IMG/VR virus record: IMGVR_UViG_3300036781_000809
Coordinates: 1-36,805 of that record
From: a virus
DNA: 36,805 bases
Strand: one strand, 5' to 3'
Below are positions 4,320 through 36,805 of this stretch, one piece after another. The translations under genes were made by a program, and so were the position numbers. Every line of letters begins with the position of its first letter. The first letter of the stretch is position 1. The notes below the pieces were generated by a model. That model had not been told where the DNA came from and made no database searches. It saw nothing but the letters and a program-made list of their open reading frames with translations.

Positions 4320-5508
4320 GGCGAATACCCGCCCAGCTGGTGGTGGCGGTCGCCACGCCCTCGATGCCGGTGATGTGATCGATGGTGACGGTATCGGTGG
4401 CCTGCTCGGCGAGGGTCAGGAAGCTGATAGCGCGAACCAGGCGCCGCGGCAAGGCGACCCCGAGGGCGGTGTCCAGCGTCAGCGTCTCCGTCGCACCTGC
4501 CTCGGCGCTAGCGGTGATACGGCGATAGAGGACCGTGCCAGTTAGCAGCTCGATACGGACATCACGACGGTTGCTCTGCTGCCGTCCGAAGACGGTGTAG
4601 CCGGCCCACTCCACGTGGATGACGTTGTCAGCTGCTGAAGCGTCATTGGTCAGCAACAGGTCGGCCGCAAAGCTTGGCACCCACAGCGTGCCCATGCGAC
4701 CACGCAACCAATACACGAGGTCGCGGAAGGCGCCATGTTCGGCCAGGCCGTGGAGCTTCCAGCTGTGGCTCTGCTGACGAAACGAGCGATTCGGCAGATC
4801 CAGATAGGCGATCACACCCGTGTCGCCGTCCACCTGCTGGATGGAGCGATCGAACTTCGTGGTGGGATCCTCGGTTTCGTCATGGCGCAACTCAAGCACT
4901 GGGAACCCGCGATAGACGGCGGTCGGTGCCACGCCCGTCCAATCGCATGGCTCGTCGACCTGCATGGTTACCTGCATCGAGGTGGCGGCATCGGTCCGAT
5001 AGTTCGCGGCGATCGAGGCGGGCACGCGTGCGTTGCGCAGCGGGTACAGCCGCGAGCCGGCGCCCCACGTCCCGAGCGTCGGCGTGTTCAACGTCAGCCC
5101 GCCGTCCTCCACGGTGGCCACCGAGACGACCTCCCACTCATTGATGGCGGTCCACAACAGCGCGCTGCCGCCGACGGCAAAGTCGCGGCCCGCGGTGGCG
5201 CACTCAATCTCGTTGCTGCCCGGGGCCACGTCGCTGGCCTGGAACTGGCCGTCCGGCCAGATCGGCAGCGCCCAGACCCGTGCGCCCTGATCGAAGCGCA
5301 ACGCGTCGATGAGGCGGTGCTCTGCGTCGATCGCGAGCACCTGGAACTGGAACGATCGACGCGGGGCGAGACGCAGCTGCCGCTTCTGACGGGCGCCGTT
5401 GCGGGCGCTCATGTAATCGGTGAGCCAGGTGAGCGTCTCGCGTACGGGGTTGCTCCAATCCGGCGGGACCGTCCAGGGCACGACGTCGCCGAGTACGAAG
5501 CCGACCAT
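4309..5508 (-). CDS. Phage tail protein, distal tail / hub-like (399 aa)
   Basis: This gene starts at the ATG that overlaps the tape measure stop by one base (TGATG). The sequence contains RNGARQKRQLRLAPRRSFQF and later RLVYWLRG-like FRDLVYWLRGRMGTLWVPSF (residues about 285-305), patterns known from the large tail protein between tape measure and BR0599 genes in B3-like phages. It probably forms part of the distal tail or baseplate hub. No enzymatic motif is visible. Order tape measure, this gene, BR0599, tip is the normal morphogenetic order. The exact structural role is inferred. Confidence 0.8.
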   Translation of the reverse strand: MVGFVLGDVVPWTVPPDWSNPVRETLTWLTDYMSARNGARQKRQLRLAPRRSFQFQVLAIDAEHRLIDALRFDQGARVWALPIWPDGQFQASDVAPGSNEIECATAGRDFAVGGSALLWTAINEWEVVSVATVEDGGLTLNTPTLGTWGAGSRLYPLRNARVPASIAANYRTDAATSMQVTMQVDEPCDWTGVAPTAVYRGFPVLELRHDETEDPTTKFDRSIQQVDGDTGVIAYLDLPNRSFRQQSHSWKLHGLAEHGAFRDLVYWLRGRMGTLWVPSFAADLLLTNDASAADNVIHVEWAGYTVFGRQQSNRRDVRIELLTGTVLYRRITASAEAGATETLTLDTALGVALPRRLVRAISFLTLAEQATDTVTIDHITGIEGVATATTSWAGIRHDV

Positions 5509-8500
5509 CAGGCGCCGATCCCCGACTTCACCTGGGAGCCGTTGGCCACCACGTGGTTGACGACCAGCTGCTCGGCCGCGGGTGCGCTGAGGATCTTCTG
5601 CGCCAGGTCGTTCAGATCGAATGCGGTGAGGAACGTGAAGTTGTTGTCCACCCGGGGAGCAGAGCTGCCCTCCGTACCATCGGGCAGGCGTGCCTTAGTC
5701 GTGCCGGGGCTGGCGAGGCGGGGTGCGTCGCGCATCGGGCTGACAAGGCCACCATCGGCGTATCCGGGCATCTGCAGGGCGCCGGTGCGGATGGCGTTAC
5801 GCAGTGCGTAGAACCCGCCCGGTCCGCCAAGGGCGCCAATCTCCTGCTGATTGAGGACACCTTCGCCGGCGTGCACGATGCCGGCGGGCTGGTACTTGCC
5901 GCCCGAGCCGGTATAGCCGCCCTCTGCAAACCCTGCGCTGCTCGAGCCGGAACCGGAGCCGGATCCCGAACTACCGCCCGTGCTCCCACCGGAGAACGTC
6001 GCGCCGGCGATGATGCTGGCGATCTGCACGCCCTGGGCGATGGCGCCGGCGATGAAGCCGATGTTGTATGGGAAGCCAGTCTCGCTCGCCTTTGCCACAT
6101 TGACGCCCAGCGAGATCGCAGCCTGTGCGATCGCAAAGGCCTTGCTCAGGGCGAAAAGCGCACGGTACTGCGCGCTCTGCTCGCCATAGGCGGACTTGGC
6201 GATGCCTGCGAGATTGGCGAAACCCTCGCTCGCCGCGCCCAGGGCGAGTGCCTGCTGCGCCTGAGTGATCGCCGCCGTCTGGGTTGCATACTGCTGCGCG
6301 ATCTCGGCCTTGCGTGCCTGGTAGACCTCTTCGTTGGCCGTGTCCTGCTGGCGGAACGCCTCGTTGGCGGCGAGCTGCTGCGTGTGCCAGGTTTCGAGAT
6401 CCTGAGACGCCTTGATGTTCTTGCCCAGCTCGCCAGCGGCGCCACCCACGGCCGCATCCACGCCCTGGTATTTCGGCGCGTCCACGACGCTGTTCTGGCC
6501 CACTCGCTGCAGGGCGTCGTGGTACTGCTGGGCGTTGATCGTGCCGTTGGCCAAGAACGCGTTGAGCTGTTTAATCTGGTCCAGCGCCGTCTCGACCTTC
6601 ACCTCGGTTGGCGTGCGCAGTGACTCGCGCAGGGTCTCCCACGCCTGACGGCCCTTGTCGGCCAGCTTGTCGATCGCGGCATCGCGGATCGTCCCGGCGA
6701 GAGCTACAACAGCGTCGCGCTCGGCATTGATGGCTGTGACGTTGGCGCCCGGCGCCTTCTTCGCCTGGTCGGCCTGCGCATTCGCCTTCGTGACGGCGTC
6801 GTTGTAGCGGACCCACGCGGCGGCTGTCGGATCGAGTTCGCCCTGCATCTGCGACAAGGACTGCAGGAGGCCCTCATTTGCGGTGGCGGCCGCCTTGGCC
6901 TGGGCTTCGGCCTCGCGCTCGGCGGCGCGCTTGGCAGCCTCGCCCGATTTCGACTGCTGCAGGAGCTTGTCGGAGTAGTTGCTGACGGCCGCGCGTAGCT
7001 GCGTGCCGCGCTGGGCATTGAGCTCGTCGGCCTTCTCCGGCATCGCCTTGATCGCGGCGTCGAAGTTCTTGTTGATGTCGTCGAGCTCTTTCTTGTAGTT
7101 GTCCGCGGCGCTTGCGTATTTGTTGGTCGACGCCGCGATGCGGTCGAGGGCTGCGGTGCCTTCGGACTGAACCTGCTGGTGCTGGGCCTGTGCCTTGGCC
7201 GCATCCTCTTCCGCCGACTGCTGTTGCTTGAGCGCGGCGATCTGCTGGTCGACGCCGGCGACGTATTTGTCGCCCAGGCCGAAGCCGATCGACTGGTAGT
7301 ACCCGCGCAGGAAATAGAGGTTATCCAGCTGCTGCTGGGTGACCTGCGAGCCCAGGCTGGCGATCAGCGCGCCACCCTGCTTGATCTCTTCCCATACACC
7401 CGAAACCTCAGCCTTTAGCGACCGCCAGGCCGTCTGAATCAGACCGAGGTTCTGGACGTCGCGCACACGCCGCTCTTCGAATGCATCCGCGACCGTACGC
7501 TGCGCGAGCGCCTCGGCCTGCGTCTCCTGACCTTGGGCCTGGAGCGCCTGGATCTGCGCGTAGATGCTGGCTTCCAGGAAGTGATACTGGTCGTCGAGTG
7601 CCTTGATCGCCGTGACGGGATTCTTCGACAGGTCGACGAACTTGGCCACGGCATCGTCGATGCTCTTGCCCGTGACCTGGGAGAACGCGACGGCACCGCG
7701 CGCCGCAGTATCGAGTGCATCGCCTGTCACACGACCCGATTCCGCCAACAGGGCGACGGCTGTTGCCGAATCACCGAACGATCCTGTCGTCGCACCAATG
7801 GTCACCGCAAGCTGCGAAAGCTGCCCCCCGGTCTTCCCCGCATAGCCGCCGGTCTCGTTGAGTGCGTTGTTGAATCGCTGCTGTTCCTCGAAGCCCTCTA
7901 CCGTGCCGGCGACGAGCAGGCCGACGACGGCGACCAGCGCACCGATGCCAACGACGGTCGGGCTGATCAGGCTGGCAAATCCCTTCAGGACGCCGCCGAA
8001 GCCGCCGAAGCTGTCACGCAACTGGCCACCTTGTTGCAGTGCCACCGAGAGCACGGGCTGGCCAGTGGCCAGACCGGTGACGATGTCGGTGATCTGCATC
8101 GGCAACTGACGCATCGCTTGGCGCGTCTGTCCGGCCGTCTGTCCGAGGTTGCCGAGAGCCGCACGGCTCTGGGTAACCTGGCCCTGGAACCGAGCAAATC
8201 CTTCGTCATCCAGGAGGCCGGCTGCGCGGTATTTCTGCAGCTGTGCTTCCTGCTGGTCCAAACGCTCCAGTGCGGCGATGGTCGGGTCGATTTCACCCAA
8301 GAGCTTCGACAACTCCGCCGTTTGATCGCGGATGGCAGCGGTGGTGGCACGGCCGCTGGTGCCCAGCCCAGTGACGTGGGTGCCAAGGTTATCGACGGCG
8401 GCGCCCGTCGATCGACCGCTGGTGCCCAGACCATCGACCGCGCTGTCGAGACCATCGACGACAGCGCTGGTCGCGCGCCCGCTCTCACCCAGCCCATCCA

Positions 8501-12975: not shown

Positions 12976-15570
12976 TTAGGCGACGATCGAGCCGTCGAAG
13001 CCGCGGTAGTCGCGGACGGCACCGCTGTAGATGTGCCGAATCTTGTACTTGATCTGGTCGTTGCTGAAGAGCGAACCCTGCGTCGGCAGATCCTGGACGA
13101 AGAGCTCCGGATCCTCGTTGCCGCCGTAGAAGCCCATCTCGATCAGCGGCACCACGCTGTTGTCAGCCGCGGCATACCAGTTGTTCGCATCGGTCCAGTG
13201 ATCGACCACGTGGATGGTCGGCACGCGGCTTTGCACGAACGTCTGGTCGTTGTTGGTCCCGCGCTGGAAGAGATTGAAGGCGGTCTCTTCGAGGTCGGAC
13301 GGGATGACCAGGTGGCGCAGCGTGATGCCCAGGCGCTTGTTGCTCGACAGCTCACCCTGGCGCTTCATGCGCAAGCGAGCGGCGGCGAACGCGGTCGCGT
13401 CCAGAGCGGCGGTGCCCAGGTTGTTATGGCCGGCCACGAAGAGCGCCAGCGTGTCGTAGATCACCGCGTTCGAGTTCAGGAACTCGTAGACGAACTCGTA
13501 CAACGTGCGACCCGCCGCGGTGGCCAGGGACTTGGGCAGGCGGCGGATCAGGCCGACGTCATCGTTGGCAATCGTCTCCAGCGAGATCGTCTCGATGCCA
13601 CCGCGCTTGGTGACGGCGTAGGTCGCCTTCTCATCGCCCGGCGAGGCGAGCGCATTGTAGGCGCCGTTCTCGGCCACCCCCGGAAGGTTGCCGTAGCCGC
13701 CAAGGCGCGTGCGCTCCTGGGTACGGAAGTCGCTGACCGGCACGATGTCGCACAACCAGCGCCAGTCCTGGTAGGCCTCCAGCGCTCCGTATTCACGGAT
13801 CATCGCCCGGGTGATGGAATCGCCCAGGATGTTGCTGAAGGTCGCCGAGCTGATCGCTTCGCGATACGTATCGCCGGCGGCTTCGCGCAGGCGGGACTGG
13901 TCGACGTCGTGCCAGAGGCCCGTAACGAACTGGTCGCCGGTGATGTCCTTGTAGCACTCGCGGAACGACATCGAGCGCTTGGTCGTGTCGAAGAAATCGT
14001 CGAGCATCTTGTTGACTTTCTCGGCGCGCCCTTCGCCCATCTCGATGCTGACGCCCAGGCCACGCACCTGCGCGCCCTCGGCGAAACGGCCGAGGTAGGT
14101 CCGCTCGGCATCAACCGCGGTGCGGACGTCATCTTCCGTGAAGCTTGCGGCTTCGGCGAAGCGCGCCGTCAGGCGCTCCTGGGCGACGGTCGGCAGTCGA
14201 CTTTCGGAGATGATCACGCGCGCCGAGGCGCGGGCCTCGATCATGCGCATACGCGCTTCGAACTGGTCCTCGGTGATACCGGTACCGGAGGCATCGATCA
14301 CCGCCTCGCGGTAGGCAGTCAACACATCGTCATCGCTGGCATTGGCCAGGGCGTCAGCCCGCTTCGCATCGCGGGCACGGATCTTAGAAATCATCTGCTC
14401 GCGCAGCATGGTGTCGCTCTCCTGGTGGGCTTCGGCGAACCGAATGAATTGCCCGCCGGCGCCGGGCTCGATAATCAGATCCACGCTATCGACCTTCGTG
14501 AGGTTGATGGCTTCGCGGAACTTGCCGGTTTTCTTGCTCTTGCCGCTGGCGTCAATCGACAGGCCAAACAGATCGGTCATGTCACGTGCCACCGCCTCGC
14601 GAAGCTTGGCGGCGATGTCGCTGCTCTCCAGCACATCGAGCGTGGCCTGGATCTCGCCCACGCCTGCCTCGATGAACTTGGGATCGCTGAGCTTGCCCAC
14701 CAGCTGGCGGAAATCCTTGCCGCCACCCTTGATGTGCTCGGCGTCGCTCTTGACGAACACGCGCACGCCATCGAACAGTGGCGCGGCTTCGCGCAGCACG
14801 TCGCGCGGGTAGGTCACGTTGTTGAGTGACGTACCGGCCCGGATAACCCGGACCAGGTAACGGGTGGGTTTGTCGCCGGCGCCGGCATCGATCGCCTCGA
14901 TGAACACGTCGCCGTGCAGGGCGGTGGCCTTGTTGGTCTTGTTGCCACCGCCCGCCGCACCCACTGCCGTCGGGTTGTTAGGTGCGCCCTCACGCAGCGG
15001 CTTCGCGCTGGAGGCAGGCACATGCTGGGAGACCACTTCGTTGGGGGTGCCCACGGTGACCTGGTTGTTATCGTCGATCGTGTACGGATAGGAGTACTGG
15101 CGACCATCACCGTTGCCGACCACCACGCTGTCGGGGTAGACGGCGATGAAATCCCAGATATTCGGGTCGACCTGGCGGACCGCCGCGTACACCAGTCGGC
15201 GGCGTGCATCGGCGTCGGTGGCCGCGGCCTCGCGCACGGTCGTGTCGGTCACGGCCGTGGTGGTGATGACCACCTCAACCGCGGCACCGAGCGTGACATT
15301 GTTGGCGTCGTCGATGGCATAGGTGAACTCGTAGTTCTTGCCATCGCGTTCGACGACCACGCGATCGGGATAGATCGCCTCGACGCAGACCCAGTCGTTC
15401 TCGGACAGGCCGTAGTTCTTGCGCAGCGACGCCTGCAGGAGGTCGCGGATCTGGCCGAACTCCGTGGCTGCCGCTTCACGCAGTGCAGCTTGGCCGATGA
15501 TGCCGCGTGCCGGCACGAGGCCCGCGGCAAGCAGCGTCGCGATGCTGGTGGAAAGCCGCGAGCGCTTCAC
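12976..15570 (-). CDS. Fused prohead protease, scaffold and major capsid protein (864 aa)
   Basis: A GTG start at 15570 overlaps the previous stop (GTGA). Residues about 51-101 and 134-181 are two copies of a beta domain (IYPDRVVVE / VYPDSVVVG followed by Y-x-x-DD-x-N-x-V-x-x-G). Residues 235-375 match the HK97-type serine prohead protease: GTSLNNVTYP, VKSDAEHIKG with His279, LFGLSIDASG with Ser338, then SVDLIIEPGAGG. Residues about 380-510 are charged and helical, like a scaffold. Residues about 515-864 are the HK97-fold capsid (FTYEFVYEFL-like, FVAGHNNLG, SGAVRDYRGF). Usually protease and capsid are separate genes. The product is probably cut in the prohead to release mature capsid protein. 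The next gene starts 35-62 nt downstream. Confidence 0.88.
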   Translation of the reverse strand: MKRSRLSTSIATLLAAGLVPARGIIGQAALREAAATEFGQIRDLLQASLRKNYGLSENDWVCVEAIYPDRVVVERDGKNYEFTYAIDDANNVTLGAAVEVVITTTAVTDTTVREAAATDADARRRLVYAAVRQVDPNIWDFIAVYPDSVVVGNGDGRQYSYPYTIDDNNQVTVGTPNEVVSQHVPASSAKPLREGAPNNPTAVGAAGGGNKTNKATALHGDVFIEAIDAGAGDKPTRYLVRVIRAGTSLNNVTYPRDVLREAAPLFDGVRVFVKSDAEHIKGGGKDFRQLVGKLSDPKFIEAGVGEIQATLDVLESSDIAAKLREAVARDMTDLFGLSIDASGKSKKTGKFREAINLTKVDSVDLIIEPGAGGQFIRFAEAHQESDTMLREQMISKIRARDAKRADALANASDDDVLTAYREAVIDASGTGITEDQFEARMRMIEARASARVIISESRLPTVAQERLTARFAEAASFTEDDVRTAVDAERTYLGRFAEGAQVRGLGVSIEMGEGRAEKVNKMLDDFFDTTKRSMSFRECYKDITGDQFVTGLWHDVDQSRLREAAGDTYREAISSATFSNILGDSITRAMIREYGALEAYQDWRWLCDIVPVSDFRTQERTRLGGYGNLPGVAENGAYNALASPGDEKATYAVTKRGGIETISLETIANDDVGLIRRLPKSLATAAGRTLYEFVYEFLNSNAVIYDTLALFVAGHNNLGTAALDATAFAAARLRMKRQGELSSNKRLGITLRHLVIPSDLEETAFNLFQRGTNNDQTFVQSRVPTIHVVDHWTDANNWYAAADNSVVPLIEMGFYGGNEDPELFVQDLPTQGSLFSNDQIKYKIRHIYSGAVRDYRGFDGSIVA

Positions 15571-15890
15571 TTGGCTTCCTTCCAGACGCGGACGCCGTCA
15601 GTCAGGACGCGCACGGTCGCGCCGTCGCGCTTGGCTTCGGACAGCACCTGGATCTTCTTCGGAGAAGCCTTGTCGGCAGCAGCCTGGTCGGCAGCGGCCT
15701 GGTCAGCAGCAGCCTGGTCGGCAGCAGCCTGGTCGGCAGCGGCCTGGTCGGCGGCAGCCTGGTTGGCGGCAGCCTGGTCGGCGGCAGCCTGGTCGGCAGC
15801 GGCCTGGTCGGCAGCGGCCTGGTCAGCGGGAGCCGACTTGGTGGCAGCTTTGGGGGCGGTGGAATTCGGCTTCTTCGGCTTCGGGGGCAC
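15567..15890 (-). CDS. Alanine-rich ADQAA-repeat protein before the capsid gene (107 aa)
   Basis: A GTG start at 15890 has AGGAGAC at 6 nt. The protein starts MPPKPKKPNSTAPKAATK (basic, Pro/Lys), has eleven ADQAA pentapeptides (residues 22-76; one is ANQAA), and ends KIQVLSEAKRDGATVRVLTDGVRVWKEAK, a short beta-type domain. It overlaps the capsid fusion gene by a GTGA junction and is the first gene after the second late-promoter element. I do not recognise a family with known function. A repeat-rod linking a basic head to a small beta domain could be a head accessory or decoration protein; that is inference. Confidence 0.75.
   Translation of the reverse strand: MPPKPKKPNSTAPKAATKSAPADQAAADQAAADQAAADQAAANQAAADQAAADQAAADQAAADQAAADQAAADKASPKKIQVLSEAKRDGATVRVLTDGVRVWKEAK
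15663..15827 (-). repeat. Eleven 15-bp tandem units coding ADQAA
   Basis: On the plus strand the unit is close to GCAGCCTGGTCGGCA, repeated eleven times without spacers with a few third-base changes (gcagcg, gcggca, cagcag variants). It codes an ADQAA rod. High sequence identity between copies suggests recent slippage-type expansion. Confidence 0.9.
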
Positions 15891-15949
15891 AGTCGTCTCC
15901 TGCTCGCATTAGCGCAGCGTGGAGACAATGTCGTGGATCGGTGCGCGGC

Positions 15950-15974
15950 GGTCTTTTAGCGCGTGCTAGTAACG
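15950..15974 (-). promoter_or_regulatory. Late promoter element, copy 2 (upstream of the capsid block)
   Basis: On the minus strand the core reads CGTTACTAGCACGCGCTAA followed by AAGACC. It matches the copy at 22994-23018 in 24 of 25 positions. It contains the dyad TAGC-N4-GCTA and a TAAAAG hexamer that could serve as a -10; no good -35 is present, as is typical of activator-dependent promoters. It lies 60 nt before the GTG of the ADQAA-repeat gene and overlaps the end of the gpF-like gene. The adjoining GCTAGT ... ACTAGC (15965-15980) can also form a hairpin. Confidence 0.65.
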
Positions 15975-15975
15975 A

Positions 15976-16842
15976 CTAGCGAGGGAGGACGACCTTGCGC
16001 ACGCCCCCGTTGGGACCGATGCGGATGGTGCTTGCGCCGAAGCTGGAACCGTCGACCACCGGGATGGAGAAGCACCCGCAATTGATCGTGTTCTCGGCGC
16101 TGCCATCGGGGTCGCGGGGAAACATCAGGTTCTCACCGCCGACCACATAGGCCTCATCGTAACGCCGAATCTGGTTATGTGCATGCACGTGGGCTGCACG
16201 CGGGTGCAGCTTGCCGCTTTTCAGCCAGCGCTTGTGCACGTTCGGCACGACATGGCCGGCCTGCTGCAGTGACTCGTTCTGCGAGATCGAGTGCGCACGG
16301 CCGATCTCGGTGTAGGCGACGGTCATGGCACGTGCCCGGGGCGCGCCACCGAGGATCCGTTGCACCAGGGTGATCGTGTCCGACAGCGGCGAGCTACCGA
16401 TGATGTTCTGCACCAGGGCGCCGTTGAGCTGGTTGAGCGCGCGAAGGCTGATATCGCCGATGCGATTGGTCAGGAACCGCTGGGTGGCCATCAACGCGCC
16501 GGCGTCGATCTGCGGACCGAGGATGCTGACGCCCGCGGCGTCGAAGGGCGCCACGATCGACCGGATGCCGGCATCCCATGCTTGCTGCGCGCCGGCGGTC
16601 GTCGAGCTCGCGGCCGCCTGGCGGAAGTCCTCCAGGGCCTGCTCTACCTCGTCGCGCATCTGGCGTAGCCGAAGCTGCGCCGACACGCTCGTGCTGCTCT
16701 GCAGGGCATCGAGGATCGCGCGCTCGGCGATCTCCAGCTGCTTGACCAGCTCGGCGAGCGTGTCTTTCTGGATCCGCGGCAGCAAGGCGCTTTCGAGCTC
16801 CGCGGCCTCGGCAAAGCGTCGCGCGCTTTCCTCCGGATCCAT
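15976..16842 (-). CDS. Minor head protein, SPP1 gp7 / Mu gpF family (288 aa)
   Basis: The N-terminal two thirds is helical (EELESALLPRIQKDTLAELV-like through QRILGG). The C-terminal domain has the family signature: VAYTEIGRAHSISQNESLQQAG, then HKRWLKSGKLHPRAAHVHAHNQ and GGENLMFPRDPDGSAENTINCGC, ending with a Cys pair. This is the phage head morphogenesis domain of SPP1 gp7/Mu gpF proteins, which bind the portal and enter the prohead. It starts 3 nt after the portal stop and ends at TAG inside the late-promoter hairpin region. Confidence 0.9.
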   Translation of the reverse strand: MDPEESARRFAEAAELESALLPRIQKDTLAELVKQLEIAERAILDALQSSTSVSAQLRLRQMRDEVEQALEDFRQAAASSTTAGAQQAWDAGIRSIVAPFDAAGVSILGPQIDAGALMATQRFLTNRIGDISLRALNQLNGALVQNIIGSSPLSDTITLVQRILGGAPRARAMTVAYTEIGRAHSISQNESLQQAGHVVPNVHKRWLKSGKLHPRAAHVHAHNQIRRYDEAYVVGGENLMFPRDPDGSAENTINCGCFSIPVVDGSSFGASTIRIGPNGGVRKVVLPR

Positions 16843-16845
16843 GCG

Positions 16846-18345
16846 TCAGGCCGCCTCGTCCTTGGGCAACGGCGGCGCCGGCCGTTTGCGCAATGGGAGG
16901 CCCGACAGATCCGGACCACCGTGATCCCCGACTTCCTTCTGCGCCGCGTCCAGCTCTTTCTCCACGTCGATCTCCACGCCCAGGCGATTGGCGAGGGCTT
17001 GCACCAGGCGCAACGCTGTTTCGCGGGTAATGAGCCCTTCGTCGATCAGCGTGGCGGCCGCGGTGGCGACCTGGACGATCGCGGCGGCGTACTTGGTGAT
17101 GTCCTTGGAGGTGATCTCGGGCCACGCGGCGACCACCGAGCCCAGGGTCTTCAGCTCGGCCGGCGTGAGTTCGCGATCGAGGGCCTGCCACGAGCTGCGC
17201 ACGACGTACCGTCCGATATCGGTGAGCATGTAGCCGATCAGCCGCTGGCGCATGGCCAGGACCTTTTCGGTTGGCTCGGCCATGCTTTCACCGGTGCTGC
17301 GATTGACGTCACCACCGCCGCCGTACCAATGCTCGGGCTGCGTCGCACCGCCCAGGATGTGGTTGCGGAACAGTCGCGCGCCTTCCGCGGCATCGTTTGC
17401 CTGGAGCTCGGGCGACTCAGCCTTCCACGATTCGGATTCATTGTGCACGCGCACGCTGCCGGGCGACGGTGCGGTGATCTTCTTTGATCGCTCGATGACC
17501 TCGTCCGGCGAAGCACCGGTGAGGGTGACGTCCCACATGAAGGCGCGCAGGAACGATGCCCGATCGAGTTCGCCGAACAGGTACTGGTCGTAGGCATCCA
17601 GCCAGTCAATCTGGGCCAGAAGGTCGCTGCGGCCGCGCGTGGCGCTGCTGAGGTCGTTCACCCGGTAATAGAAGCAGTCGCCATCGGTGAAGCTCTCGCG
17701 GATCTCTTGCGTGCGCGTCGCGAAGGCCGACTCGGGCACATTGATGATGATGCGATAGCGCTTAGCCACGCCGCCCCGGCCGCGCTTGGTGACGATGCCG
17801 ATCGGCTGCTCGCGATTCTCCGGGTCGGTCACGATGGTTTCGATCAGCGCGGGGTCGAGGTAACCCAGGCGGACGAAACCGTTCACCTCGTTGCGGAAGA
17901 CGGGGTAGCACTGCTCACCGAAGAGTGCGAGCTCGCGCACCCGCTTGGGCAGCTTCATGTCCCAGGCGTTGATGCCGTCGTCCCAGTGCGCATCGAGAGC
18001 GTCCTGGGAATCAGCATCGTCCTTGATCGTCAGGCGCACGCCGCCGGAGAGCAGATAAGCGACCGGCAGCTCGATCAACCGGTTCGCCAGCAGGTTCGTC
18101 TCCCACTGGTAGTGGGCCAGGCGCTGCATGCGCTCCTGGGTGAGTGGCGAGAGATCGCGTTGGCCATTGCCGGTCAGACGCTTCCACTGGTCGTCATCCT
18201 TGTCGACGGTCGCACCGGCCGACTCGACCATGCGATCGGTTTCCGGAACCTTTTCGGGGTCCGAGGACGGATTTCCCGTCCACCACGCCCGCACACGGTC
18301 CATCAAACCCGGCTGAGAGTTTTCCTGAATTTTCGCAACGCCCAT
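16846..18345 (-). CDS. Portal protein (499 aa)
   Basis: ATG at 18345 (MGVAKIQENSQPGLMDRVRAW) has GGAG at a good distance; the longer open frame upstream overlaps the terminase end and is Pro/Arg-rich. The sequence shows the portal layout: an N-terminal helical part (WETNLLANRLIELPVAYLLSGG), a beta-rich stem and wing (FGEQCYPVFRNEVNGFVRLGYLDP), SRSDLLAQIDWLDAYDQYLF-type clip or stem region, and ending with a helical, Pro-rich tail RKRPAPPLPKDEAA. It follows large terminase and precedes the gpF-like gene, the usual order. It forms the DNA entry ring of the head. Confidence 0.9.
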   Translation of the reverse strand: MGVAKIQENSQPGLMDRVRAWWTGNPSSDPEKVPETDRMVESAGATVDKDDDQWKRLTGNGQRDLSPLTQERMQRLAHYQWETNLLANRLIELPVAYLLSGGVRLTIKDDADSQDALDAHWDDGINAWDMKLPKRVRELALFGEQCYPVFRNEVNGFVRLGYLDPALIETIVTDPENREQPIGIVTKRGRGGVAKRYRIIINVPESAFATRTQEIRESFTDGDCFYYRVNDLSSATRGRSDLLAQIDWLDAYDQYLFGELDRASFLRAFMWDVTLTGASPDEVIERSKKITAPSPGSVRVHNESESWKAESPELQANDAAEGARLFRNHILGGATQPEHWYGGGGDVNRSTGESMAEPTEKVLAMRQRLIGYMLTDIGRYVVRSSWQALDRELTPAELKTLGSVVAAWPEITSKDITKYAAAIVQVATAAATLIDEGLITRETALRLVQALANRLGVEIDVEKELDAAQKEVGDHGGPDLSGLPLRKRPAPPLPKDEAA

Positions 18346-18367
18346 CGGGGGTCTCCTTCGTAACCTT

Positions 18368-20017
18368 CTAGCGCCCAGGGGGCCCGGAGCGGCTCTGAGG
18401 GCCAACTGAGTCGGCCCGCTTTCCAAACATGGATGACACGCCACCACGGCCGAAGCCGGTGGCCCGGTACGTTCCTGCTGTCGCTGCCACCGACTCGCCG
18501 GCGGCCGGCTGCACTTCGTCGCGCGCAGCGGCCCACATGAGCACGCCGCTCACCGCGGTATCGCCGTGGCGGAAGCCACCGTCCATGCCCTTGGTGCGCG
18601 CATCGCTCATGCGCGGTGAACCCTTGACCAACACCACGCTGCGGTGATCGGCGATCCAGTCCTCGTCCCCGAAGGTTTCGATGTCGCCGTCTTCGAAGGC
18701 CTGGTGGTAACGCGGGAACCAGGTGTCGTACCAACCGCCTGTCATCTGCACGCATTCGACGCGCTGCGGACCAACCAGCTGCATGGCGGCCTCGGCGTGG
18801 CTCTGGCCATTGCCACGCGCGTCGAACTTGCCGTGGTGGAACAGCGGCAGATTGAGCAGCAGCCAGGCCACGATCAGCTTCTGGCAGTCAAACGGGATCT
18901 TGCGCAGCTCGATGCGCAGCGGTGTCCGCCAGTGCGTCGTTCCAGGAACCGGCTGACCGATCACGATGGGCGAAAGGTCACCATCGCGGGCGAAGTCCTG
19001 GCCGAGCACGGTGCGCCGGTCCTGCGGCAGCGAGTCGACTGCTGGCTTGAGCACTTCGTCGATCCAGTCCTGCGTGATGCGCAGGCGATCGGGATCGAGG
19101 ACGAACTCCGGCTTCTTCGTATACCGCAGCACGACCAGGCCATCGACACCACACTTCTCCAGGAGCATGCGGCTGAAGTACACACCGGTTCCGCGTGCGG
19201 GGATGCACTCCAGTTCCTCGTCGGCAGCCTCTACGGTGCGGTATGCCGACCGCACCTCGTCGACGAATGCGGTCTCGGCTTCGGGCGACCACACCTTCTT
19301 CGTCACCAGGGCGATGCGGCGATACAGGCCCTCTTTGACTGCCTGGCTGAAAGCGACCTCGTGGAGGGACCAGGGCAGTTTCTTCGCCTTGATATCCTTC
19401 AGCAGGTCGTTGAAGTAGTTGTCTTCGCCGTTGTGCGTGCCGCCGATCGACACACGGCCACCCCAGATCAGGTACGCCATTGCACCGTCGATGACAGGGC
19501 CAAGATGCTGGTGATGGCCCGCCTCGTCGATGCGCGCATGGCCCTGGCGACCACGCCAGTTGTACGGCATGGCTGACAGCGCCTCGATCTTGTGGCCGCT
19601 GGCCATCTGGATCTTGTACCGGACAATGTCGCGTCTCTCGTTCTCGATGACGGCCTTCTCGTAGGCGACGTCGATGGCGCTGCAGGCGGCACCGTACCAA
19701 CGGGCAAACGTCGCGCAGTCACCGATGAACTCGGCAGCCATGCCCTGGTTGTAGCCCATGTAGAACTGGTCCATACCGCCCTGGGAAAGGGCGGCTTCGA
19801 GTGCGGCCTCCGCGGCCCAGGCACCGAAGGTGAAGCCGATCCGTCGGCCCTTGCTGCAGAAGCGCACGCGCGAATCGTCCTGGTGCCAGCGGATCTGGTA
19901 CGGCAGGAGGATCTTCGGGATATCGGCGGCCGGCAGGCCCGCGAGCTGCTTGCCGGCACGCTCGGCCTGGATCTCGTCGACCAGGTTCAGTGCCTCTTCG
20001 CGTTCCTCCGGCGTCAT
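18368..20017 (-). CDS. Terminase large subunit (549 aa)
   Basis: The ATG at 20017 (MTPEEREEALNLVDEIQ) overlaps the small subunit stop in an ATGA junction. RFCSKGRRIGFT at residues 53-63 is the Walker A variant typical of Mu-type large terminases, and HARIDEAGH (residues 160-168) the Walker B. Asp341 in LGQDFARDGD begins the C-terminal RNase H-like nuclease, with a further acidic GKFDARGNG (Asp399). It powers headful packaging and cuts DNA; in transposable phages packaging starts near the phage end and runs into host DNA. Length is typical. Confidence 0.93.
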   Translation of the reverse strand: MTPEEREEALNLVDEIQAERAGKQLAGLPAADIPKILLPYQIRWHQDDSRVRFCSKGRRIGFTFGAWAAEAALEAALSQGGMDQFYMGYNQGMAAEFIGDCATFARWYGAACSAIDVAYEKAVIENERRDIVRYKIQMASGHKIEALSAMPYNWRGRQGHARIDEAGHHQHLGPVIDGAMAYLIWGGRVSIGGTHNGEDNYFNDLLKDIKAKKLPWSLHEVAFSQAVKEGLYRRIALVTKKVWSPEAETAFVDEVRSAYRTVEAADEELECIPARGTGVYFSRMLLEKCGVDGLVVLRYTKKPEFVLDPDRLRITQDWIDEVLKPAVDSLPQDRRTVLGQDFARDGDLSPIVIGQPVPGTTHWRTPLRIELRKIPFDCQKLIVAWLLLNLPLFHHGKFDARGNGQSHAEAAMQLVGPQRVECVQMTGGWYDTWFPRYHQAFEDGDIETFGDEDWIADHRSVVLVKGSPRMSDARTKGMDGGFRHGDTAVSGVLMWAAARDEVQPAAGESVAATAGTYRATGFGRGGVSSMFGKRADSVGPQSRSGPPGR

Positions 20018-20598
20018 GCGCCGGTACCGGCCGCGGCTTCGTCCGGCTTGACGCCAAGGAACTCGGCACGGATCTGCGCCCATGCTTCCGGCGACATGCC
20101 CTGTTTCGTTGCCACCTTCTCGGCTGCCTTGGCCTGGCGTTCGAGGGCCTTGCGCTCGATCTGCTCGCGGCGCTCGATGCTGGCCTTGGTCGATGCCTCC
20201 ATGTCGCGGATGGCCTTGGCCAGCAGCATGATGTCCATCGGCTTGGGGGCTTTCGGCTTCCCATCCTTCTCCAGCGGACCGTCCGCGCTGCCGATATCGG
20301 CGATGGTGCGGAAGGCGACGGTCTTGAGCATCTCGGCCAGCAACGCGCTGACGTCGCCGCCCGGGTTCTCATTGAGCTGGCTCACCCACTGGCCCGCGAC
20401 CATCTGCGCTTCGCGGTAGTGGTCCATCTGCTCACGGGCGCCCTTGACGTAGCGGCCAACGGCCGACTTGCTGACTTCGGCGTCGAGCTGGTTGAGCGCG
20501 TCAGTGATCTCGTAGATCGTGCGGCCTTCGCGAATCAGGCGATGGCACAGGTCCGCGAGTTCGCGGGGCAGCTGGTCGATGGTGGAGCGCCGGCCCAC
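20014..20598 (-). CDS. Terminase small subunit, DUF3486 / Mu gp27 family (194 aa)
   Basis: A GTG start at 20598 gives GRRSTIDQLPRELADLCHRLI, the canonical N-terminus of DUF3486 proteins. An HTH-like segment follows (YEITDALNQLDAEVSKSAVGRYV, residues about 32-54), and the rest is helical and charged, including KASIERREQIERKALERQAKAAEKVA. The family is the Mu gp27-type small terminase. The gene begins 1 nt after the stop of the preceding 98-aa gene and overlaps the large subunit. Confidence 0.9.
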   Translation of the reverse strand: MGRRSTIDQLPRELADLCHRLIREGRTIYEITDALNQLDAEVSKSAVGRYVKGAREQMDHYREAQMVAGQWVSQLNENPGGDVSALLAEMLKTVAFRTIADIGSADGPLEKDGKPKAPKPMDIMLLAKAIRDMEASTKASIERREQIERKALERQAKAAEKVATKQGMSPEAWAQIRAEFLGVKPDEAAAGTGA

Positions 20599-20599
20599 G

Positions 20600-20896
20600 T
20601 CAATCCTCCAGCAGCTTAACGCCAGGCACATCCAGGTCGCCGCTGACGATGTCGCGGCCCGCCTGCGTGATCTTGGCTATGTCGAACTCGCCCTCGCCGA
20701 TCGGTCGCACCGTGGCGAAGCCATGACGGCTGAGCCAGGCCAGGTCGATCGCCACCGTGTCCGTGTCGGCCTTGTAGCCCCAGCTGCGCACGAGGGTACG
20801 AATCATCGGCGCACCGGTGCCCTGGTTGTTGCTCTCGGCGAGGATCCGCAGGATGCGCCCGCGGCGGAAGGCCGTCTGTTCTTCGGTAAGGCCCAT
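20600..20896 (-). CDS. ArsR/winged-helix-like small phage protein, Mu gp26 position (98 aa)
   Basis: Begins at the ATG at 20896 overlapping the DUF2730 stop (ATGA). MGLTEEQTAFRRGRILRIL is followed by MIRTLVRSWGYKADTDTVAIDLAWLSRHGFATVR (recognition-helix-like region) and a short beta wing with FDIAKITQAGRDIVSG. This is a winged-helix pattern known from Mu gp26-like proteins next to the terminase genes. Its role may be regulatory or in packaging. Function not shown. Confidence 0.8.
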   Translation of the reverse strand: MGLTEEQTAFRRGRILRILAESNNQGTGAPMIRTLVRSWGYKADTDTVAIDLAWLSRHGFATVRPIGEGEFDIAKITQAGRDIVSGDLDVPGVKLLED

Positions 20897-21300
20897 CAGC
20901 GGTTTCCTCTGAGCAGGAGTTCGTGGATTACACCCAGCTGCTCTTTGAGCGCATTGGATGTGGCGGCGGTGGCAGCGACCTGATTCGACACGCCGTTGAT
21001 CTTCTCGTGGAGCGGGCCAAGGTCCTTGCCGACGAGAAAGTGTTTCTGCGATTCCTCGATTCTGGCCACACCGTCCTCCATCTCGGCGAGGCGATGGTTC
21101 GCTGAGACAAGCTGGTTTTTCACTTCGCCGATGGCGCGATCGGTGTGCTTGCGGATGACGCGATCGCCCTGGGCAATCTTGGTGCTGAGGTCGGAGGCCT
21201 GCGACTTTCGGTAAACCGTTACGGCCACGGTCGCGGCCACGATCGAGCACACCGCGGAGACCATCGCGGCGATAGGCTGCAGATCGTTCCATGCAAACAT
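20896..21300 (-). CDS. DUF2730-like membrane-anchored coiled-coil protein (134 aa)
   Basis: MFAWNDLQPIAAMVSAVCSIVAATVAVTVYRKSQA gives one N-terminal membrane helix, followed by a long coiled coil (residues about 40-130) with HRLAEMEDGVARIEESQKHF. This is the architecture of the Mu gp25/DUF2730 family found between lysis and terminase genes. The ATG at 21300 follows the o-spanin stop by one nucleotide. The function is unknown. Confidence 0.82.
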   Translation of the reverse strand: MFAWNDLQPIAAMVSAVCSIVAATVAVTVYRKSQASDLSTKIAQGDRVIRKHTDRAIGEVKNQLVSANHRLAEMEDGVARIEESQKHFLVGKDLGPLHEKINGVSNQVAATAATSNALKEQLGVIHELLLRGNR

Positions 21301-21301
21301 C

Positions 21302-21625
21302 TCAAGGTTCCCCTGGTTGCTTCGTTACCTTGGCTGCGGTGGCCCGGTCGGCATTCGCCTTGCGCAAGGCGCCGCGCCATTCTTCGATGGTCGCCAACCC
21401 GTCGAGTACGCATACGGCCGGTGCGCCTGCCAACAAGCAGTGCACGGCCGGCGGCGGTGGTTCCGGGATCAGATCGGTCAGCCGCGCATCGAGCGGCTGG
21501 TAGGCCGGTACCGGGACCTCAATGATCTGGGGCGCCTTGATCTCGTGCCGGGTTTCCCCACAGCCTGTCAGCGACGGTAGGACAAACAGGCAGGCGAGCC
21601 AGGTCAGCGCATTGCGGGTCTTCAT
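21302..21625 (-). CDS. Rz1: o-spanin, Rz1-like lipoprotein (107 aa)
   Basis: The start at 21625 lies inside the 3' part of the Rz gene in another frame, so the two overlap by 107 nt. MKTRNALTWLACLFVLPSLTGCGE holds a lipobox (L-T-G-C, Cys22) cut by signal peptidase II. A Pro-rich segment EPPPPAVH follows. The rest continues past Rz and is longer than most Rz1 proteins. It would sit in the outer membrane and join Rz to fuse the membranes at lysis. Confidence 0.82.
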   Translation of the reverse strand: MKTRNALTWLACLFVLPSLTGCGETRHEIKAPQIIEVPVPAYQPLDARLTDLIPEPPPPAVHCLLAGAPAVCVLDGLATIEEWRGALRKANADRATAAKVTKQPGEP

Positions 21626-21971
21626 GGGCGGCTTTCGTCAGTGCAGCTTTGAGCTTCTGGGTCGTTACGTCGAGGTCGTGCTGCAGGGCGTCGCGCGCAT
21701 CGAGTGCTGCGTTTGCCATGTTGCGTATTGCGTCGAGCTGGGAGCGCTGTGCCTGTAGCGATGCCTTGACCTGGTTAAGCGTGCTGTTGACCACGTCGCG
21801 CTCGTCCCGGTAGCGGTCCCTCTCTACGTGCGCATCGTCGACCTTCTTGTCGGCGTCCTTCTTCGTGGCAGAGACGCCATCGGTATAGCCGCGGTGATGG
21901 CCATGCCATTCACCAAGGCCAAAGAGGGCGGCCAATCCAAGCAGTCCGTAGGCGACGATCGCCAGCTTCAT
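21519..21971 (-). CDS. Rz: i-spanin, Rz-like (150 aa)
   Basis: The ATG at 21971 overlaps the endolysin stop (ATGA), preferred over an ATG two codons earlier. MKLAIVAYGLLGLAALFGLGEW is a membrane anchor, followed by a coiled coil (KKVDDAHVERDRYRDERDVVNSTLNQVKASLQAQR), and a C-terminal part with two Cys (ECADLARLPVCP-like: DPQCADLARLPVCPT). It is the inner-membrane spanin partner of the overlapped lipoprotein. Both belong to the lysis block. Confidence 0.85.
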   Translation of the reverse strand: MKLAIVAYGLLGLAALFGLGEWHGHHRGYTDGVSATKKDADKKVDDAHVERDRYRDERDVVNSTLNQVKASLQAQRSQLDAIRNMANAALDARDALQHDLDVTTQKLKAALTKAAHEDPQCADLARLPVCPTVADRLWGNPARDQGAPDH

Positions 21972-22660
21972 GTGCATGCCACCTTGCCGGGCCAGCCGGC
22001 CGACGCATACGCCGGTTCCAGCGTGAGCAAGATCCGGCGTACGTAGGTTCGGTTCTCGCGCCAGGCGGCGGCTCCACGCGACTGGTACCGCTCGACCTGG
22101 CCGAACCATCGAAGCGGGTCATCGCGAGCTTCATAGGCCTTGCGGCGTTCGCGGTCGCGTGCGCCTTCGCCGCCGTTGTAGGCGCTGAGCGTCATCGCCC
22201 AGCGGTCGCATTCCGTCGCGCCGGTGGCGCGTTCGTGGAGCCAATGGTCGTAGCACGCGATGGCGCGGAGCGACCACGCGGAATCCCAGGGATCGGGGTC
22301 GCCCAGGTCCGGACAGATCTCGGGAATCCACGCTGCCGTCGGTGGGGTGAATTGGGCAAGGCCCTGGGCGTAGGCGCTGCGCGCCGACGGGTTCCAACCG
22401 GACTCCTGGTGCAGCTGACCGGCCAGCCTTGCCACCGGCGCATCGATCCCGAAGCGTTCGCCGGCAGCGCGTTCCAGTTGCATCCGGTAGCGCACCGAGT
22501 CAGAAGGGATGCGCACCGATGCCGGCATATCAGCTGCAGGGCAGATGGACACGCCGAGCAGGAAAACGGACGCGCAGGCCATGAACCAGACCGCTGGCGA
22601 TCGCCGTACAGCAACCCAGCGAATGCACAGCGCCACGGCGATGAGCAGCAAGATGGTCAA
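21968..22660 (-). CDS. Endolysin, lytic transglycosylase (SLT domain) with N-terminal membrane segments (230 aa)
   Basis: A TTG at 22660 overlaps the holin stop as TTGA and is taken as start; an ATG at 22582 is an alternative. Two hydrophobic stretches (residues about 3-18 and 21-43) precede the catalytic domain. LAGQLHQESGWNPSA has the catalytic Glu86, then AQGLAQFTPPTA and LSAYNGGEG complete the SLT motif set. The membrane segments suggest a signal-anchor-type endolysin secreted by the host Sec system, with holin control of its release. The SLT fold cleaves the glycan between MurNAc and GlcNAc. Confidence 0.88.
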   Translation of the reverse strand: MTILLLIAVALCIRWVAVRRSPAVWFMACASVFLLGVSICPAADMPASVRIPSDSVRYRMQLERAAGERFGIDAPVARLAGQLHQESGWNPSARSAYAQGLAQFTPPTAAWIPEICPDLGDPDPWDSAWSLRAIACYDHWLHERATGATECDRWAMTLSAYNGGEGARDRERRKAYEARDDPLRWFGQVERYQSRGAAAWRENRTYVRRILLTLEPAYASAGWPGKVACT

Positions 22661-22962
22661 GGTAGCAGCGCTCCCGCCAGGAGAGCCGCGGCCACGATAA
22701 GTGCCCGGCGCTTCCACGCGGTGCCCTGGGCAATGCCCTGCAGCTCATGCGGTCGTGCGTACGGGAAGATGATCCGGTCGACCCAGTAGCCGAGATAGGC
22801 GTACAGGCCGATGCGCGAGGCGCCCCAGATGAGCAGGCCGACCTTCGCCGGGTTGAGCACCAGGACCACCGCAAAGGTGATCGCGCCCAGCAACAGGAGG
22901 GGCGTGGCGCGGAACAGATCGCGCACACGGGGAGAAATGCGGAAGATGCGAGGGAGGTCCAT
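22657..22962 (-). CDS. Putative holin (101 aa)
   Basis: ATG at 22962 (MDLPRIFRISPRVRDLF); a GTG at 22986 is possible but its Shine-Dalgarno is too near. Three hydrophobic segments: about residues 19-38 (TPLLLLGAITFAVVLVLN), 44-63 (VGLLIWGASRIGLYAYLGYW) and 85-101 (RRALIVAAALLAGALLP). Position just upstream of endolysin and first in the lysis block, with the 25-bp late element 32 nt before the ATG, supports a holin. No specific family motif is certain. Confidence 0.75.
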   Translation of the reverse strand: MDLPRIFRISPRVRDLFRATPLLLLGAITFAVVLVLNPAKVGLLIWGASRIGLYAYLGYWVDRIIFPYARPHELQGIAQGTAWKRRALIVAAALLAGALLP

Positions 22963-22993
22963 GTGGCACAAGGTGCCGGTGGACACCCCCTGG

Positions 22994-23018
22994 GGTCTTT
23001 TAGCGCTTGCTAGTAACG
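22994..23018 (-). promoter_or_regulatory. Late promoter element, copy 1 (upstream of the lysis/packaging block)
   Basis: Minus strand reads CGTTACTAGCAAGCGCTAA then AAGACC, 24 of 25 identical to 15950-15974. TAGC-N4-GCTA forms the dyad, TAAAAG is a possible -10. The element lies 32 nt before the holin ATG. A TATGCT further upstream (about 23040-23045) is another possible -10. An adjoining AGCGCT pair (23002-23027) also gives a hairpin. The 146 bp between 22962 and 23109 hold no other gene. Confidence 0.65.
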
Positions 23019-24102: not shown

Positions 24103-24690
24103 TTACTTCTTCTTGTCGCCGCTCCCTTCATGAAAGTCACGGCCTGCCACACGGTTCCCGTCTCCAACCAAAGAGATATCGGCAGCTTCTTGCGAAACTG
24201 AAGGTGCTGTCAGGTCCGATTCGCCACGGCGAACCGCTTGCAACAGCTGCAGCGCGCGCTCCCTCTGGAGGCGACTAAGGTCCCGAAAAGCCTCGATTAA
24301 GTCGGCTTCCTCGTCGGTGAGCACCTTCTTTCGCCGATCGGACTGCATGCGGGACCACTCACGGGCCTCCCTGCGAACAAGCTCGAGATAGCGCGCAGCC
24401 TCAATGGAATCGATGTCTAGCAGCTGTCGATCCTCCTGGTTTCTGACGCTGCCCATTTGAGGGTTTGAGCCTCTCAGCACGTACTCAATGTTTCCGGTGA
24501 GGTTCAAGAGCGCGGCCAGCAACTCGCCGCCTGGCATCCGTTCGCCCTTCTCAACCTTCCTGATTTGCTCGGAGCTATACCCGGCCGCAAAGGCGAGCTC
24601 CGCCCGCGACAGGTTCAGGCGTTCCCGCTCTTGCTCGAACCGTGCCCCGACTTCCAGGGCCGATGAAATCGGCACTTGACGTGCACCCAT
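24103..24690 (-). CDS. Phage repressor, HTH XRE-type (195 aa)
   Basis: ATG at 24690 (MGARQVPISSALEVG) with GGAAAGG about 10 nt before; an ATG at 24699 has the site too close. HTH at about residues 15-60 (FEQERERLNLSRAELAFAAGYSSEQIRKVEKGERMP), a typical XRE/CI-type domain. The middle is helical (LRREAREW ... DEEADLIEAFRDLSRLQRERALQLL). The end carries VGDGNRVAGRDFHEG (residues 175-189). It is divergent from ner with operator-like repeats between them. It is the probable keeper of lysogeny. No peptidase domain is seen, unlike LexA-type repressors. Confidence 0.85.
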   Translation of the reverse strand: MGARQVPISSALEVGARFEQERERLNLSRAELAFAAGYSSEQIRKVEKGERMPGGELLAALLNLTGNIEYVLRGSNPQMGSVRNQEDRQLLDIDSIEAARYLELVRREAREWSRMQSDRRKKVLTDEEADLIEAFRDLSRLQRERALQLLQAVRRGESDLTAPSVSQEAADISLVGDGNRVAGRDFHEGSGDKKK

Positions 24691-24704
24691 AGTTGCCATA
24701 CCTT
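24676..24704 (+). promoter_or_regulatory. Candidate early promoter (rightward)
   Basis: TTGACG at 24676-24681, a 17-nt spacer and TACCTT at 24699-24704. The -35 is strong and the -10 is moderate. It would start transcription near 24711 and run into ner and the transposition genes. The AGTTG half-site at 24691-24695 lies in the spacer and the palindrome at 24707-24718 lies at the start point, so repressor or Ner binding could block it. It overlaps the repressor start, as is usual in such switches. Confidence 0.4.
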
Positions 24705-24731
24705 TCCAACTAAAGTTGTGTTCGTAAGTTG
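24691..24731. promoter_or_regulatory. Operator region with AGTTG/CAACT half-sites
   Basis: CAACT-AA-AGTTG (24707-24718) is an inverted repeat with a 2-bp centre. Further AGTTG half-sites are at 24691-24695 and 24727-24731. Together they lie in the leader of the repressor and the early promoter region, typical for repressor and Ner binding. The binding protein is inferred. Confidence 0.5.
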
Positions 24732-24778
24732 ATTTTCGATGCGCAGACATTGCGCTTTAGCCAAGGAACCTAAGCTCG

Positions 24779-26277: not shown

Positions 26278-26745
26278 ATGAGCCGCCGCCATTGGAAGAC
26301 CTGGGCGCCCACGAGCCTGCAGGAAGCGGTAGAGGGCTGCGTGCTATTTGCCCAGGAGAAGCATCGCCTGTCCGTCGAGCGCATCGCCGATCTGGTCGGC
26401 GAGAACAAGTGGACGGTCTACAAGTGGATGCAGGGTGGTTCGGTGCCGGGCAAGAAGATCGCGGGCTTCGAGCATGCCTGCGGCCGCGCGTTCATCACCC
26501 AATACCTCGCGACCAGCGCGCGAAAGCTGCTGATCGATATCCCCACCGGCCGCATGCCGGGTGACAGCGACATCCACGCGCTGCAGGAAGCCTGCACTGC
26601 CGCGATCGGGGCACTCCTGGCGTTTTCCCAGGGCAAGGCAGATGCCGCCGACACCACCGACCACCTCACCGCCGCGATGACGCTGCTCGCCCACGAGCGC
26701 GCCCAGGTGCAGCGCCACGTTCAACCGGAGCTCGATCTGTCATGA
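26278..26745 (+). CDS. HTH-containing phage regulatory protein (155 aa)
   Basis: ATG at 26278 with GGGGTGG before it. Residues about 15-70 (LQEAVEGCVLFAQEKHRLSVERIADLVGENKWTVYKWMQGG) hold a helix-turn-helix with a tryptophan-rich recognition area, followed by KIAGFEHACGRAFITQYLATSARKLLIDIPTGR, a conserved block of a family found in the early region of B3-like transposable phages. The C-terminus is helical. It likely binds DNA or regulates replication-transposition. The 114 bp before it hold the leftward promoter. Confidence 0.75.
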   Translation: MSRRHWKTWAPTSLQEAVEGCVLFAQEKHRLSVERIADLVGENKWTVYKWMQGGSVPGKKIAGFEHACGRAFITQYLATSARKLLIDIPTGRMPGDSDIHALQEACTAAIGALLAFSQGKADAADTTDHLTAAMTLLAHERAQVQRHVQPELDLS

Positions 26746-26942
26746 CCCCCGAAGCAATCATCAAGGCTTACCGCGTACCTGGCGGTGCGATCGTCCGCGT
26801 AATGCGTAATGGACGCACACGCCGCTATCGAATCGGCCCTCATCGATTCAAGGCGCTGAGCCGGACGATCAACCTGAGCAAACAGAGGTGGTCGGGCTTT
26901 TTCGGTCGGTCCACGCTGGATGCGACGCGGTGGTCGGCATGA
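26742..26942 (+). CDS. Small basic protein (66 aa)
   Basis: ATGA overlap with the upstream gene at 26742-26745. MTPEAIIKAYRVPGGAIVRVMRNGRTRRYRIGPHRF is rich in Arg; no family recognised. The basic character suggests nucleic acid binding. It overlaps the next start (26939) by ATGA. Both junctions support real translation. Confidence 0.6.
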   Translation: MTPEAIIKAYRVPGGAIVRVMRNGRTRRYRIGPHRFKALSRTINLSKQRWSGFFGRSTLDATRWSA

Positions 26943-27253
26943 GCACCAGCAATTACATCAATGCCGCCCAGCAGCGCGTGCTCAACACGCTGTTGCTGCT
27001 CTGCGGGCACGAGATCATGGGCCTGGCGCCCGGCGAGATCTCCAAGGCGCTGCGCACCAGCGCGAGCAACGTTACGCGGGACCTGGCCAACCTGCGTGAG
27101 GCCGGCCTGGCGGAGCCACTGGAAAGTGGCAAGTGGCGCGTCACGCCACGCCTCGGCCAGCAGGCCATCAAGATCCTAAACGCCCTGAACGACGCGACCT
27201 CGCGTGTGGACGAAGTCCGCCGTCGCTTCGGCATGGGCGAAGCCCACCGTTAA
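26939..27253 (+). CDS. Winged-helix (IclR/MarR-like) regulator (104 aa)
   Basis: ATGA overlap with the 66-aa gene. AAQQRVLNTLLLLCGHEIMGLAPGEISKALRTSASNVTRDLANLREAGLAEPLESGKWRVT (residues about 8-68) is a typical winged-helix domain with helix-turn-helix and beta wing. The end is helical. Such proteins recur in the early region of transposable phages, probably as transcription regulators. Target unknown. Confidence 0.78.
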   Translation: MSTSNYINAAQQRVLNTLLLLCGHEIMGLAPGEISKALRTSASNVTRDLANLREAGLAEPLESGKWRVTPRLGQQAIKILNALNDATSRVDEVRRRFGMGEAHR

Positions 27254-36569: not shown

Positions 36570-36571
36570 CG

Positions 36572-36805
36572 ATGGCGCCCGACAGCAAGGCTTCGCGGGT
36601 GCTGCGGGTGCTCGCTGAAGGCCCGGCCACGACGGGCGAGGTGGCGGCAGAACTGGGCTGGAACGTCCATCTGACATGCGCCCACCTGAAAAACCTGCAT
36701 CTGGCCGGCAAGGTGAGCCGGAAACGGTTCCCGGCTCCCGGCCGATTGGTGCGGTTTCTTTGGTCGATCGTGGATGAAGGGATGCGTAATGACGCCAGCC
36801 ATTAA
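36572..36805 (+). CDS. Winged-helix small protein (77 aa)
   Basis: ATG at 36572 after the DUF2786 stop (an in-frame GTG at 36566 is possible). SKASRVLRVLAEGPATTGEVAAELGWNVHLTCAHLKNLHLAGKVSRKRF is a clear winged-helix domain. TAA ends exactly at the window end (36803-36805), so the protein is complete. Probably a regulator in the distal early operon; the gemA/mor-type genes expected next lie beyond the window. Confidence 0.72.
   Translation: MAPDSKASRVLRVLAEGPATTGEVAAELGWNVHLTCAHLKNLHLAGKVSRKRFPAPGRLVRFLWSIVDEGMRNDASH

Follow-up and report, generated by a model that had tools for sequence, protein, structure and literature searches.

Results

Genes and the repeated element

The window analyzed here, the whole of a 36,805-base virus record, is the DNA of a Mu-like transposable phage that encodes transposase A and B, a Mu F-like head protein, portal, terminase, a capsid/protease fusion, endolysin, spanin and holin. 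The leftward late genes begin at the holin and early genes run rightward; the genes upstream of the holin, among them an HTH repressor gene, are oriented toward it. By capsid comparison the isolated phage nearest to the window is Microcystis phage Mae-JY22 (44%); all remaining relatives are prophages or uncultivated contigs, with Lysobacterales and Rudaea providing the nearest. The genes referred to below are:

22657..22962, minus strand: holin gene (PF13272, phrog_1528), heading the lysis/packaging block, with no Shine-Dalgarno sequence
15567..15890, minus strand: ADQAA-repeat gene, GTG start at 15890, first gene after the putative capsid promoter, with a Shine-Dalgarno sequence
12976..15570, minus strand: capsid/protease fusion gene (phrog_29592, phrog_133)
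24103-24750: HTH_3 repressor gene
26278-26745: gene for a CII-like protein
26888-27253: gene for an ArsR-like protein

The ADQAA units are encoded by a 15-bp tandem repeat (15621-15875), and the protein is possibly scaffold-like.

The sequence GGTCTTTTAGCGC[G/T]TGCTAGTAACG is found at 15950-15974 and again at 22994-23018, the two copies being identical at 24 of 25 positions, in the same orientation and 7,044 bp apart; the match extends beyond the 25 bp to 32 of 37 positions. The chance expectation for such direct pairs, given the length and composition of the window, is 3.5e-4. The sequence of the element, written along the minus (late) strand, is CGTTAC-TAGC-NNNN-GCTA-AAAG-ACC, and its copies stand ahead of two start codons, ATG of the holin (22962) and GTG of the ADQAA-repeat gene (15890). 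The initial annotation had described the repeat, its spacing of about 7 kb, its placement before these two genes and a TAGC-N4-GCTA dyad within it, and all were confirmed for both copies. When the window was scanned on both strands with a matrix built from relatives (the window being left out of training), the two sites scored 39.0 and 36.6 bits and the next best score was -2.8, with no third copy of the element detected. The sites within the repeats are:

22997..23012, minus strand: predicted Mor-type activator site of the lysis promoter, TAGCAAGCGCTAAAAG, with the TAGC-N4-GCTA dyad centered at about -43.5
15953..15968, minus strand: predicted Mor-type activator site of the capsid promoter, TAGCACGCGCTAAAAG

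Conservation among relatives

A search of viral contigs with the exact 25-mer gave no match, and since the motif is degenerate the relatives were found by protein instead, with portal- and capsid-based searches gathering more than 250 related loci. The core TARC-N4-GYTA-AAAG was present before the same two blocks, holin and capsid, in 24 related transposable phages besides the window. The initial annotation had proposed a search for the motif before these genes in relatives, its absence from close relatives to count against the reading, and the reading passed this check. Both copies were present in 14 of the 24 genomes, one lying 4-7 kb before the portal gene (ahead of holin) and the other 2-5 kb after it (ahead of the capsid block). 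The remaining element-bearing genomes are mostly fragments covering one of the two places; a second copy was not recognized in L012, L108 and L187. Among the 40 copies, position 3 of the left arm is split evenly between A (20) and G (20) and, a few asymmetric copies excepted, the arms change together from TAGC..GCTA to TAAC..GTTA (A with T, G with C).

Other relatives have unrelated dyads at the same two places, for example TGACGCGCGTCA, GGCCGACATNTGTCGGCC, GGGGTGAACWGTTCACCCC and CCGGAAGCGCTTCCGG, which were located by a matched-palindrome search. This search for symmetric dyads gave 28 candidate pairs, 9 of which were dropped because a -10 was missing in one or both copies. A de novo search for 24-mer repeats that made no use of symmetry was also tried and set aside, as it returned mostly coding matches. 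The dyad copies match inside one genome and differ between clades, and this is what one activator co-evolving with its two sites would be expected to produce. In Comamonadaceae-type prophages (L136, L139, L140, L143, L144, L151, L155 and L179) a long palindrome, GGCCGACATNTGTCGGCCTTA, with variants, lies before both blocks and is often trailed by a T-rich stretch ahead of the -10.

Geometry of the predicted promoters and the holin start

A hexamer of the form xANNNT occurs at an offset of 36 or 37 from the dyad start in 39 of 40 copies, compared with a mean of 2.3 and a maximum of 8 for other sliding windows. The independent set of genomes with unrelated matched dyads gave a sharp xANNNT peak 32.5 bp from the dyad center (28 of 48), and in several genomes the hexamer is a near-consensus -10 (TAAACT, TAATCT, TAAATT, TAGATT). 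The corresponding features of the window are:

22975-22970, minus strand: CACCTT, predicted -10 of the lysis promoter, spanning the loop of the hairpin described below; spacing kept in 39 of 40 homologous promoters
15932-15927, minus strand: GACATT, predicted -10 of the capsid promoter, from the xANNNT spacing
22962..22963, minus strand: predicted transcription start of the lysis promoter, from the spacing to the -10; at the holin ATG or one base before it

The -10 sequences of the window match TATAAT poorly, which counts against the promoter model, and a scan for a sigma-70 consensus promoter found none (no -35 box). From the xANNNT offset of 36 or 37 the dyad center falls at -42.5 or -43.5, so that a dyad-symmetric, presumptive activator site near -43.5 takes the place of the -35 box, with a predicted sigma-70 -10 at a fixed distance. 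Mor of Mu binds a 16-bp dyad centered at -43.5, replacing the -35 (PMC4390567, PMC4287176).

The hexamer TAAAAG, to which the initial annotation had drawn attention, is present, but its reading as the core hexamer did not stand. Because of the geometry of the downstream xANNNT it would not be the -10 but the edge of the activator site, part of the block at the -35 position, with the -10 lying 20-21 nt downstream. Were TAAAAG itself the -10, transcription would start upstream of the hairpin described below, and the hairpin would serve inside the late mRNA as a translational control. TAAAAG is highly conserved and matches TATAAT at 4 of 6 positions; however, its crucial sixth base is not T, the spacing of the downstream xANNNT is fixed across genomes and across unrelated dyads, and the holin ATG is locked 7-8 nt past the downstream hexamer with no Shine-Dalgarno sequence. 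We consider a start of this kind very improbable.

Within the window's clade, all 13 genomes have the ATG of the holin 49-50 nt from the dyad start and 7-8 nt past the -10, and lack a Shine-Dalgarno sequence there; in other clades the start codon lies 6-8 nt beyond the -10 in 12 of 19 genomes. Because the AUG follows the -10 by only 7-8 nt, the holin mRNA should be leaderless, beginning at its AUG or one base before.

Predicted hairpins that pair with the translation start

When the promoters were aligned, a feature came to light which, like the leaderless holin, is not in the initial annotation: the stretch running from the -10 as far as about +1 has its complement in the Shine-Dalgarno sequence or the start codon of the next gene. 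The complementary arms differ by phage: GTCTCC..GGAGAC in the window, TTCGCTCCTG..CAGGAGCGAA in L036, TGCAACT..AGTTGCA in L039, and CACTCCATC..GATGGAGTG in L136. Two hairpins are predicted in the window:

22957..22984, minus strand: predicted holin hairpin GUCCA-GGCAC-cuu-GUGCC-UGGAC, from folding and covariation; expected to hide the holin start in read-through RNA only
15888..15935, minus strand: predicted capsid-leader hairpin, GUCUCC of the -10/start region pairing with the Shine-Dalgarno sequence GGAGAC, from folding and the own-arm test

The second, outer stem at 22957-22984 (GUCCA with UGGAC) takes in the second codon of the holin gene.

The capsid leader of the window, folded as read-through RNA, gave -21.6 kcal/mol (z -3.8) with GGAGAC paired; in the fold of RNA begun at the predicted +1 (15920) GGAGAC was open. 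The holin start fell within a hairpin when read-through RNA was folded, and in no hairpin when the RNA began at the promoter; both the -10, placed in the loop, and the entire 5' arm precede this start. The 5' arm of the predicted helix that would hide the ribosome binding site (RBS) is thus situated inside the promoter region and upstream of the predicted start, the arrangement of T4 gene e. Predicted openness of the RBS was 0.23/0.11/0.17 in read-through RNA and 0.44/0.40/0.73 in RNA from its own start, and we infer that translation is blocked in the read-through RNA.

Arms were swapped between genomes, a comparison in which neither base composition nor conservation of the Shine-Dalgarno sequence can account for a difference. 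The own arm paired better than swapped arms at the capsid leader (-13.1 versus -8.9 kcal/mol, n=20) and at the leaderless holin (-15.2 versus -10.2 kcal/mol, n=13), with 0 of 20,000 permutations reaching the observed value in either case, and the independent set gave 0 of 20,000 for capsid (n=19) and 10 of 20,000 for holin (n=12). The 123 other gene starts within the same loci showed no such complementarity (mean z -0.01, versus -2.2 at the promoters). Covariation in the holin stem was 0.297 as opposed to 0.101 for shuffled alignments (0 of 500), with 15 two-sided changes against 6.1 when shuffled, and slid versions of the stem were far lower.

These results bear on whether the elements are ordinary Mor/C-type late promoters and nothing more, the RBS complementarity being without function. 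The geometry is indeed the strongest signal, and the hairpin is missing from some copies, no lock being seen for the capsid of L003 and L016 or the holin of L009 and L036. A purely promoter role is nonetheless unlikely given that own arms exceed swapped arms in two independent sets, that the control genes show nothing, and that the holin stem covaries. Hairpins with covarying arms at block boundaries might also be intrinsic terminators or processing sites between the blocks, which we regard as highly improbable, the 3' arm being the RBS itself. Intrinsic terminators were rejected: no T run follows the hairpins, and a terminator scan of the late strand was negative at both boundaries. As the HTH repressor gene and its neighbors point at the holin, across a boundary without a terminator-like site, a lock on translation of read-through RNA has a plausible rationale.

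A predicted Mor-family activator

A search of the window with PF08765 (Mor) found no match, and among the first 25 relatives searched 17 had a match above the family cut-off. The Mor gene of relatives is mostly the last in the early operon, after a GemA-like gene, and most genomes of other clades have a Mor-family gene as well. Homologues of the last two genes of the window are followed in relatives by GemA and then Mor, and from this synteny a mor gene is predicted just beyond the right end of the window. The record stops at 36566-36805, just before the GemA-Mor pair of relatives, leaving its early operon incomplete. An alignment of the relatives' Mor proteins matched the Mu Mor/C structures PDB 1rr7, 9l0y, 9l0x and 9vw8 with E values of 6e-20 to 8e-18. 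In L016 (about 4600-4980) and in L157, L159 and L119 (all three about 5200-5600, the match in L119 being weak) the Mor-family gene lies directly before the lysis promoter, a position shared with Mu C, unlike that at the end of the early operon elsewhere.

Divergence of Mor was not significantly correlated with divergence of the dyads (Mantel 0.16, p about 0.07), and for that reason the assignment to Mor draws upon position, geometry and co-occurrence. No simple code linking the recognition helix to the G/A arm base was seen in 29 aligned Mor proteins, and L132 has a dyad pair and no Mor match. The dyad could be bound by some other phage regulator, such as the CII-like, ArsR-like or HTH_3 repressor proteins encoded in the window, and the weak Mor-dyad correlation would be compatible with this. 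We think it quite unlikely, because a dyad at -43 that replaces the -35 is the Mor/C arrangement, and because a Mor-family gene is present in nearly all genomes with paired dyads, even where it adjoins the lysis promoter. The proposal of the initial annotation that the copies mark late promoters of a Mor/C-type activator is supported by conservation, by the -10 spacing, by the symmetry and center of the dyad and by the Mor-family gene of relatives, and we infer from these sequence features that Mor binds the two sites.

Discussion

In Mu, Plys precedes lys, and PI precedes the I/T head genes, consistent with the Mu annotation. The two predicted promoters of the window serve the same two gene blocks, and resemble Pm (activated by Mor) and Plys and PI (activated by C) in having a dyad at about -43 in place of the -35, a sigma-70 -10 and an activator of the Mor/C family. 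They differ in that phages of the window's clade were generally found to have a single Mor-family gene, whereas Mu employs a Mor-then-C cascade, and in dyad sequence, the DNA sites in the Mu Mor/C structures being those of Mu. The RBS-complementary arms at both promoters and the leaderless holin start also set the window apart from Mu. The start of Mu I has an RBS-complementary arm (z -2.9, p 0.008, for one of eight starts tested) and Mu lys has none (z -0.4). In the Mu PI leader (L332, 8980-9057) CTGCTCA..TGAGCAG is found beside the Shine-Dalgarno sequence and may be a lock of the same kind.

The RBS of T4 gene e is masked in long early transcripts by a helix, the 5' strand of which comes from the late-promoter DNA; this strand is missing from late transcripts (PMC3014915). 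The locks of T4 gene e (lysozyme), soc, 49 and I-TevI share the logic proposed here, a promoter-encoded 5' strand that hides the RBS in longer transcripts. The phage in the window would use sigma-70 and a Mor-type activator in the role of the T4 late system and, unlike T4, would have the lock at the capsid block as well as at lysis, and also in a leaderless form that places the -10 within the loop of the hairpin. The open-licence literature searched held no report of RBS locks or leaderless holins in Mu-like phages.

We consider it likely that both elements are Mor-activated late promoters of a Mu-like phage, each carrying an RNA lock on its first gene. The last part of the early operon would supply a Mor-family activator, which would bind the dyad at about -43, replacing the -35 box, and once bound would recruit host sigma-70 polymerase to a weak -10 located 20-21 bp past AAAG, one promoter leading into lysis/packaging and the other into the capsid block, at the places of Mu Plys and PI. 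The -10/start region would supply the 5' arm, and the Shine-Dalgarno sequence or start codon of the first gene the 3' arm, such that RNA entering from upstream would fold and its first gene would not be translated; RNA started at the promoter would be without the 5' arm and would be translated, the holin from a leaderless AUG. It also seems probable, with somewhat less assurance, that such locks form a family among Mor-regulated transposable phages of alpha-, beta- and gammaproteobacteria, where RNA started at the promoter would alone be translatable, many of them with a leaderless holin; the T4 locks would be independent, and Mu PI may share the device.

The dozens of matched activator-site pairs obtained from genomes, differing by clade, offer a data set for DNA recognition by Mor/C proteins. 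If the proposal is true, one short DNA element couples transcription and translation, and stray transcription of the prophage, for example from the repressor operon that points at the holin, would make no lysis or capsid proteins; a trick known from T4 would then have arisen in an unrelated phage group and been extended beyond lysis genes.
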